NCBI GenBank assembly: GCA_026388365.1
Contig: JAPLJW010000133.1
Span: 1 to 10,924 of the forward strand
Direction: 5' to 3'
DNA length: 10,924 nucleotides
Source: Deltaproteobacteria bacterium
GTDB lineage: Bacteria; Desulfobacterota; Syntrophia; Syntrophales; UBA5619
Below are positions 5,276 to 6,812 of the stretch, piece after piece (position 1 is the first letter of the stretch; the number at the start of each line of letters is the position of its first letter). Made by a program: the position numbers and the translations under genes. The notes under the pieces are model-generated. The model worked only from the letters and a program-made list of their open reading frames with translations. It made no database searches and was not told the DNA's origin.

Positions 5276-5549
5276 ATAGGGCCTTTTGGCGCAAAGGCGT
5301 CTGATGATCCGTAACTAATATTGACATGATCTGCGGAAAAGGAAAAATGGTTGCATTATGCCGGCCAAGAGCTTTATAGATATTCCACCGTATTTAGAAT
5401 GGGATAAGAAGAGCCGGTATTCCATAAGTGCAAGGATACGATTGCACGGTTATGGTTTAGAATCCTGAATATGCGTCCGGGTGGTAGAGATATCCGGAAA
5501 CGATAGAATAACTTGTCAGGACCCGAAAATCCCGAAGGGTGTGTCGCCT
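5276..5549. other. AT-rich intergenic gap with hairpins
   Basis: No gene was found in this gap. It holds a perfect hairpin, GCCTTT (5281-5286) with AAAGGC (5293-5298), and a second, GTGCAA (5428-5433) with TTGCAC (5442-5447). A TTGACA occurs at 5321-5326 without a good -10 at the right distance. The octamer TTTAGAAT occurs twice, near 5394 and 5457. The promoter of the downstream methyltransferase gene is probably here but could not be fixed. Confidence 0.5.
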
Positions 5550-6281
5550 GTGAACCGTTTTGCCGCATACGCAATGATGTCTATGGCCATGCTCATAGGC
5601 GGGGGATCGCTCCTTTTTTTCGGAGTATTTCTGGTCATCGGACCCATCACCATGGTCCGTTTTGGCGCCTCGGAACACCAGGCACTCCTGTGGGACGGGT
5701 TGCTGTCCGTCCTGTTCTTCATTCAGCACAGCGGAATGATACGGACGTCGTTTCGGTCCAGGCTCTCTTCCATTATCCCCAGCCATTACCACCCGGCAAC
5801 CTATGCCATCGCATCCGGCATAGCGCTGGCAGCCGCGGTACTCCTGTGGCAACCGTCCCAAACGGTTCTCTATCAGGCTGAGGGCCCGCTTCGCTGGCTG
5901 GCACGTGCCATCACTGTATTGGCCATCGTGTGCTTTTCGTGGGGGGTGCGGGCCCTCGGAAACTTCGACACATTTGGTCTAAGGCCGATCAAGGCGTATC
6001 TGCGCGGCAGGCAGCTCCGGGCGCCAAACGTCGTCATCCGCGGTCCCTATCTCTGGGTCCGCCATCCCCTCTATTTTTTTATGCTCGTTCTCATCTGGTC
6101 GTTCCCCGACGTCAGTTTGGACCGCCTGCTTTTCAATGTGCTTTGGACCCTCTGGACGGTTCTCGGCACGTACCTGGAGGAGAAAGATCTGGTTGCCGAG
6201 TTCGGCGACCCGTACCGCCATTACCAGAAGACCGTCCCGATGCTTTTCCCGTGGCGGTTTCCCCGCGGCTCCAGGCTGTGA
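5550..6281 (+). CDS. membrane methyltransferase, MddA/NnrU-like
   Basis: Integral membrane protein of 243 residues with about five hydrophobic segments. The motif set matches the NnrU-type family that includes MddA, methanethiol S-methyltransferase, which makes dimethyl sulfide with S-adenosylmethionine. It has FFIQHSGMIRTSF (56-68), NFDTFGLRPI (138-147), RGPYLWVRHPLY (164-175), EEKDLV (210-215) and FGDPYRHYQKTVPMLFP (218-234). The last block, with its charged residues and the RHP motif, is the SAM-binding end shared with isoprenylcysteine and phospholipid methyltransferases. The start is uncertain: GTG at 5550 with AAGGG about ten bases upstream leaves a normal N-terminus (VNRF then a membrane segment), while GTG at 5481 would add 23 hydrophilic residues without a ribosome site. 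The acceptor (methanethiol, another thiol or selenol, or a lipid) is not proven. The SelW-like gene follows 136 bases later. Confidence 0.8.
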   Translation: MNRFAAYAMMSMAMLIGGGSLLFFGVFLVIGPITMVRFGASEHQALLWDGLLSVLFFIQHSGMIRTSFRSRLSSIIPSHYHPATYAIASGIALAAAVLLWQPSQTVLYQAEGPLRWLARAITVLAIVCFSWGVRALGNFDTFGLRPIKAYLRGRQLRAPNVVIRGPYLWVRHPLYFFMLVLIWSFPDVSLDRLLFNVLWTLWTVLGTYLEEKDLVAEFGDPYRHYQKTVPMLFPWRFPRGSRL

Positions 6282-6336
6282 AACGCATGGCGGTCGCATA
6301 CTGGGGCGTTCACGCGCCCGACCGGGCGCTCAAGAG

Positions 6337-6362
6337 GGGCGCGGCAAAAAGCCGCCGCGCCC
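6337..6362. terminator. strong hairpin after the methyltransferase gene (possible terminator, no T-run)
   Basis: GGGCGCGGC (6337-6345) and GCCGCGCCC (6354-6362) are exact 9-bp reverse complements around an 8-base loop. A smaller stem, GGGCG...CGCCC near 6303-6319, lies just upstream. No run of T follows, so it may act as a Rho-independent-like pause or 3'-end protector rather than a canonical terminator. It separates the methyltransferase and selenoprotein genes. Confidence 0.45.
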
Positions 6363-6417
6363 ATTCGCTTGGTCTTTAGATGAACTGGATGAGCCATTTA
6401 AAAACCAAGGAGGTGTT

Positions 6418-6654
6418 ATGAAAATTTCTATTGAATATTGTGTTGCTTGAAACTTTCTTCCTCAAGCTTCCCGTGTGGAAGCGGAATTGAAGGCAAATTA
6501 TCCCGATTCAAATATTGAATGGATCGAAGGCGGAGGCGGCATCTTCGATGTAAAGTGTAACGGCAAGTTGATTTACTCCAAACAGAATATTAAAGGACAG
6601 CGATTTCCCAATGCGGGAGAAATCGCCCGATTGATCGAACAAGAGAGGAGCTGA
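6418..6654 (+). CDS. selW: SelW-like selenoprotein (Rdx family), TGA at codon 11 read as selenocysteine
   Basis: A 78-residue thioredoxin-fold redox protein. A perfect AGGAGG sits four bases before ATG 6418. The frame reads MKISIEYCVA, then TGA (6448-6450), and continues open for 67 codons to TGA at 6652. Reading the first TGA as selenocysteine gives YCVAU, the CxxU active-site motif (C8, U11) just after the first beta strand, where SelW proteins carry it. The rest is also Rdx-like: a helix (ASRVEAELKANYP), a strand, a glycine turn (EGGGGIFDV), then CNGKLIYSKQNIKGQRFPNAGEIARLIEQ, matching the 'GKLI-SK ... RFP ... LI' pattern of the family. A hairpin follows the TGA at a suitable distance. The role is thought to be thiol redox or antioxidant, with substrate unknown. 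GC is about 42% by hand count against about 60% in neighbours, hinting at separate ancestry. The sel machinery is not in the window. Confidence 0.9.
6462..6490 (+). promoter_or_regulatory. candidate bacterial SECIS hairpin in selW mRNA
   Basis: GCTTCC (6466-6471) and GGAAGC (6477-6482) form a perfect 6-bp stem with loop CGTGT (6472-6476). TCAA (6462-6465) and TTGA (6487-6490) can extend the stem past a 4-base bulge. The apical stem begins 15 bases after the TGA and the loop carries G-U, as expected for an element read by SelB. Bacterial SECIS elements lie inside the coding region directly after the UGA, as here. Confidence 0.65.
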
Positions 6655-6688
6655 CATTTATTGCTCCAGCAACAATATATGTCCAAGT

Positions 6689-6751
6689 CGTCATTCCCGC
6701 GCAGGCGGGAATCCAGAATTGGACTGGATGCCGGATCAAGTCCGGCATGAC
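6689..6751. repeat. dispersed palindromic repeat, second family, copy 1
   Basis: CGTCATTCCCGCGCAGGCGGGAATCCAG is split here into stem halves ATTCCCGC (from 6692) and GCGGGAAT. It is followed by a second stem GATGCCGGA...TCCGGCATGAC (6728-6751). This twin-hairpin form is a common proteobacterial intergenic repeat. It sits between selW and the exporter gene and overlaps the most upstream possible ATG (6747) of the exporter, which argues against that start. Confidence 0.8.
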
Positions 6752-6812
6752 ATTTGATATGTTTAATTGCCGGAGTAATAACGGAAATGGGCAAATAGGT
6801 GCCACCCCGGCC

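Follow-up and report, generated by a model that had tools for sequence, protein, structure and literature searches.

Does the TGA at positions 6448-6450 end a short reading frame, or does it encode selenocysteine (Sec) within a longer one? The window, a stretch of 10,924 nucleotides from a Deltaproteobacteria bacterium, carries on its forward strand a frame from 6418 to 6654 with an ATG at 6418-6420, a TGA as codon 11, 67 sense codons beyond it and a stop TGA at 6652-6654. An AGGAGG ribosome-binding site (6408-6413) is read directly 4 nt before the ATG; the sequence preceding the start codon is AGGAGGTGTT-ATG in the window and AGGAGGCGTT-ATG in the related loci L001-L006. When the TGA is read through, the product has 78 residues and begins MKISIEYCVAU. 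The CxxU redox motif (C8-V-A-U11, residues 8-11) occupies 6439-6450, from the Cys8 codon TGT (6439-6441) to the Sec11 codon TGA. An earlier note on this DNA had described just this arrangement of AGGAGG, ATG, ten codons, TGA and 67 open codons, and it is present as stated. The Rdx-like domain with CxxU proposed there was also found: the read-through product is matched by Pfam Rdx (PF10262) over residues 2-74 (E 4.6e-18, 65.6 bits, cut-off 22.6) and by NCBIfam NF041051 over residues 3-73 (94.9 bits, cut-off 88). It matches TIGR02174 as well (56.2 bits, cut-off 34.2). An open reading frame at 6136-6450 does end at the TGA 6448-6450, as the note had it, but only because it lies in the same frame. 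The frame 6418-6654 is a stand-alone gene of the Rdx/SelW family (selW), almost certainly for a CxxU selenoprotein of a kind already well known in bacteria. Codons 12-74 are under purifying selection (dN/dS 0.12-0.28 against the seven relatives L001-L007); the stretch after the TGA is therefore real protein and not a chance open frame.

The AlphaFold2 model of the protein has a pLDDT of 96.1 and places C8 and residue 11 between a strand (2-8) and a helix (14-27), so that in the model CxxU follows strand 1 of a thioredoxin-like fold. Foldseek matches it to SelW-related bacterial structures at E values from 5.6e-6 (the best, 2fa8) to 6.0e-5. The predicted fold superposes on the bacterial chains (2fa8, 2ojl, 2obk, 2oka, 3dex and 2p0g) with an rmsd of 1.5-1.9 A, and these share 22-28% identity with the 78-residue protein; mouse SelW (2npb) is a weaker match (E 6.1e-3). 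Where the window protein has Sec, three aligned structures, 2fa8, 3dex and human MIEN1 (2ljk), have Cys and read CxxC.

If the TGA encodes an amino acid, it should be found in relatives, or be replaced there by Cys. Relatives were collected by scanning one genome per species, which gave 103 confirmed loci; in the best 80 of these, which were kept, TGA stands at codon 11 with an open frame beyond it in every case (80/80). Two genomes, G001 and G002, contain the loci syntenic with the window (L001 and L002). Among 395 genomes from the phylum of G001, 57 carry 58 matches; 53 of the 58 have a TGA inside (two also have a TAG) and five have no stop. Four of these five are distant relatives with Cys at the aligned position. 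The fifth belongs to a tandem pair (L134, G594:C134:8280-9180) in which the first copy has TGA and the second, this one, has Gly at the corresponding position. The class of G001 (155 genomes) includes 11 carriers, with TGA in 12 of 13 matches; the thirteenth (G154) is weak, at 35.5 bits, and reads CxxS. The in-frame TGA thus aligns with Cys or TGA in homologues except for one Gly copy and one Ser copy. The first Cys is also variable in places: L026 (8001 onward) has Trp at codon 8 and keeps the TGA.

Bacterial Sec codons are followed by a hairpin, the SECIS element, and a candidate is found at 6466-6482 on the forward strand. This is the upper stem-loop (GCTTCC-CGTGT-GGAAGC), with a 6-bp stem and a 5-nt loop (6472-6476); the loop lies 21 nt from the TGA, its second base is G (6473), and the MFE of the region is -14.0. 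The published bSECIS model asks for a loop of 3-9 nt, a stem of 4-16 bp, a G as first or second loop base, a distance of 16-37 nt from the UGA and an MFE of -7.5 or lower (PMC13188914), and the hairpin agrees with it on every point. This loose rule is not discriminating, however; it accepts 74 of 80 selW rows yet also 1528 of 3000 background TGA sites. Folding z-scores from codon-preserving shuffles are weak (-1.12 for the window and a mean of -0.71 over 80 sequences; -0.22 to -0.34 for three control stretches), and an Rfam scan of the window at E values up to 5 found no SECIS family. The case for a SECIS is therefore built on covariation and on the exact position of the hairpin. When 80 sequences were aligned without gaps (the window and 79 loci; L016 was left out as it contains an N), the loop G proved invariant (80/80). 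The six stem pairs hold in 90.2% of 480 cells, compared with 76.6% in shuffles, and pairing falls to 29-55% when the partner is slid by 1-3 columns. The covariation score is 0.428 against 0.157 when shuffled; none of 500 shuffles, which ignore relatedness, scores as high. Column pairs 21-33 and 22-32 have changed on both sides with pairing kept in 34 and 29 sequences respectively, and the two outer stem pairs show no such changes. Since shuffles ignore relatedness and the structure was derived from the same sequences, a background of 3000 other TGA sites, in any frame within loci L001-L080, was also used. A 4-pair hairpin with G at the exact distance from the TGA occurs in 72 of the 80 (interrelated) selW rows and in 23 of the 3000 background sites.

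These results bear on two other ways of reading the TGA. It could be a true stop, and what lies downstream a pseudogene or an independent protein of 59 residues started from the GTG at codon 20 (6475-6477; open reading frame 6475-6654, forward strand). Protein catalogues seem to speak for this: 212 homologues were found, and of the 120 listed, 98 start only after the TGA and have no motif; homologous entries start at this V or M. However, the residues encoded ahead of the TGA (2-10) are part of the same domain and of its first strand, TGA is kept in 80 of 80 loci as would not be expected of a decaying gene, and the selection seen after the TGA (dN/dS as above) is that of a functional protein. 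The GTG, moreover, sits at the 3' side of the SECIS loop, inside the hairpin, and it is 6418 that a clear AGGAGG precedes. A true stop is considered highly improbable. The organism might instead read TGA as tryptophan, since 19 of the 120 listed homologues are CxxW and two are WxxW (P0013 and P0016). Against this, TGG occurs 36 times in seven neighbouring frames of the window, three of which terminate with TGA. Calling these frames with TGA as a stop leaves no room for internal TGA from the outset, so the weight falls on the domains: the MddA-like and NUDIX domains have reached their ends when the TGA stop comes, and the YddG-like and DLH domains run without a break. A Trp code is largely refuted for the window and is the least credible of all the readings. 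The W in the CxxW and WxxW entries would be the TGA as translated by a gene caller under a TGA=Trp code.

The same catalogue entries indicate how annotation treats such genes. Those without the motif are mostly V/M-EAEL fragments of about 59 residues which start after the motif, and many are named 'selT/selW/selH-like putative selenoprotein'. Of the 120 listed entries, a single one reads CxxC. The 59-residue frame 6475-6654 is probably what ordinary callers would record here. Because 98 of the 120 listed entries start after the motif, genes of this kind appear to be truncated often rather than lost. The earlier expectation that standard callers lose the gene altogether is therefore only partly borne out: a truncated 59-residue frame is commonly recorded, while some SelW genes, those of Epsilonproteobacteria, are reported to have been completely missed in annotation (PMC4607533).

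Decoding of UGA as Sec also requires the Sec machinery. L001 and L002, labelled Syntrophales and Syntrophaceae, are syntenic with the window and about 89-94% identical to it in DNA over several kb, so their genomes G001 and G002 can stand in for the window's own. Both contain selA, selB, selC and selD, and the organism of the window would be expected to have the same set. Among 13 host genomes searched, tRNA-Sec is over the cut-off in all (G009 marginally, 47.4 against 47), selB in 11, selA in 10 and selD in 12. ARAGORN gives the anticodon TCA in 8 of 8 tRNA-Sec loci, which come from eight of these 13 genomes. The selD matches of G001-G013 contain an in-frame TGA of their own in 15 of 17 rows. 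Within the class of G001, a strict search found no enrichment of tRNA-Sec in carriers of selW (7 of 11 carriers, 118 of 144 non-carriers). Of the four carriers without it, one has a tRNA-Sec gene cut at a contig end, and selA and selB are over the cut-off in all four. Four other carriers were examined for selA and selB; three pass for both, and G135 passes for neither, yet has tRNA-Sec. Incomplete assemblies would account for the Sec genes missing among carriers.

A UGA can also be read as cysteine, by the SelB*/selC* tRNA-Cys(UCA) system described in some Syntrophobacterales and Desulfobacterales (PMC7609411), and second tRNA-Sec-like genes do occur in the class of G001. Against such a reading of UGA 6448, G001 and G002 each have a single tRNA-Sec that exceeds the cut-off, and its anticodon is TCA; in G001 the match ranked next is a tRNA-Ser. 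Both genomes also contain selA and selD. Cysteine insertion here is very unlikely, though less so than a true stop or a Trp code; all three receive low ratings. Among the second tRNA genes, L136 (G154:C15:7400-10400) has anticodon TCA and is closely followed downstream by a further selB match that exceeds the cut-off; L137-L139 were typed as tRNA-Cys GCA. All four resemble the published selC* tRNA-Cys/SelB* system (PMC7609411).

The reading of the locus as a stand-alone SelW-like selenoprotein gene, in which UGA 6448 would be translated as Sec by way of the SECIS at 6466-6482 and the product would have a redox role, is accepted with very high confidence. It draws together the frame, the family, the predicted fold, the TGA kept in relatives, the covariation of the hairpin and the Sec genes of the congeners. 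The interpretation of the TGA as Sec in the earlier note is upheld by the conserved TGA, the Cys of distant relatives, the covarying SECIS and the presence of selA, selB, selC and selD in both syntenic congeners; its proposed check, Cys or Sec at residue 11 in homologues, holds in 80 of 80 loci and in four distant relatives, but not in the Gly (G594) and Ser (G154) copies. In the cell, translation would start at 6418, and a SelB-GTP-Sec-tRNA(Sec) complex held by the hairpin would insert Sec at UGA 6448; recognition of a bSECIS may depend on the species. The C8-V-A-U11 motif would then lie in the loop that joins strand 1 to helix 1 of the thioredoxin fold, where the selenol/thiol pair may form a small redox centre for thiol-disulfide or peroxide chemistry. 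This redox role is predicted from family membership.

SelW-like proteins are among the known bacterial selenoproteins, with a figure of 10 in the 2006 table, including those of the deltaproteobacteria Desulfotalea psychrophila and Geobacter sulfurreducens, and their Cys forms are reported as few or lacking in Sec-using organisms (PMC1794560). In ocean samples, 427 Sec and 56 Cys forms of SelW-like were counted, the highest count among the rows listed, and SelW-like and SelD were called the most widespread in that survey (PMC2398784). The window gene belongs to the same family and has the same CxxU motif as the SelW-like selenoproteins of Zhang and colleagues (2006, 2008; PMC1794560, PMC2398784); as the kind is well known, it is an added member. 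It differs in its host. The genome is Syntrophales-like, and the entry for Syntrophus aciditrophicus in the 2006 table is without SelW-like (PMC1794560). NF041051 is the SelT/SelW/SelH family (seleno)protein model, whose short name points to Campylobacterota, whereas the window gene comes from a Syntrophales-like genome; the cut-off of the model is passed by only 2 of the 155 genomes in the class of G001, and G001 itself just misses it (85.2). A limited literature search found no paper on selenocysteine in Syntrophales; absence from print is not claimed.

Several comparisons suggest that selW was transferred laterally. In the Cloacimonadota-labelled genome G003, selW is 86% identical to that of G001 (dS 0.38, dN 0.08), whereas SelA and SelB are 39% and 34% identical, with dS saturated and dN of 0.68 and 0.77. 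Between G002 and G003, the identities are 87% (selW), 40% (SelA) and 35% (SelB); between G001 and G004, they are 81%, 50% and 48%. The label of G003 fits its contig, because the neighbour of selW there is 71-75% identical in the three nearest of 59 genomes of the same phylum. In that phylum, selW occurs in one of 117 genomes sampled, which is G003 itself. Base composition is also uneven: third-position GC is 38-42% in selW of the window, G001 and G002, and 86% in selA of G001 and G002. Two observations soften the case for transfer. The dS of selW is low between the congeners G001 and G002 too (0.10; selA 0.29, selB 0.56), so a slow synonymous rate in selW is possible; against G005, G007 and G008, selW dS is 1.0-1.4. 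Protein change points in the opposite direction: selW has a dN of 0.05 between the congeners, not below the 0.04 of selA, yet in the comparison with G003 its dN is some eight times smaller than that of selA. The Syntrophales genus to which the window appears to belong probably acquired selW laterally.

Between non-syntenic loci, homology begins some 10-45 bases upstream of the ATG and reaches no more than about 60 bases past the stop; L004 and L006 have a longer homologous block in common (394 columns). It is fairly likely that selW moves with its ribosome-binding site and SECIS as a lone unit of about 230-330 bases between Sec-decoding anaerobes, even across phyla; an AT-rich donor would have given it to the GC-rich Syntrophales genus, and a close cousin would have reached one Cloacimonadota genome. 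In L004, a perfect 13-nt inverted repeat (6416-6428 and 6730-6742) flanks selW, and L006 has by eye a similar imperfect pair which the repeat search did not report. No inverted repeat flanking the gene was found in the window, and a terminal-repeat element is therefore not claimed.

No operon partner was found among the nearest upstream and downstream frames of ten relatives; eight of these proteins were Pfam-scanned, and none recurs between distant loci. A methyltransferase lies directly upstream of selW in L001 and about 1.2-1.3 kb away in L002, with other sequence in between. In the window, the upstream methyltransferase (5481-6281) resembles methanethiol S-methyltransferase MddA, at 123.5 bits, below the cut-off of 270. 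Right after the stop is a palindromic repeat-like stretch (6655-6775; arms 6681-6700 and 6705-6724), over which Rfam gives a weak match below its threshold. Compared by eye with L002, where similar sequence resumes, the stretch has the look of an insertion.

The locus offers a clean and checkable example of how ordinary gene calling truncates a selenoprotein gene; CxxU genes as short as this easily go under-counted or receive the wrong label. The transfer signal suggests that single selenoprotein genes can spread among organisms which already decode Sec and take their SECIS with them, a point relevant to the growth of selenoproteomes.
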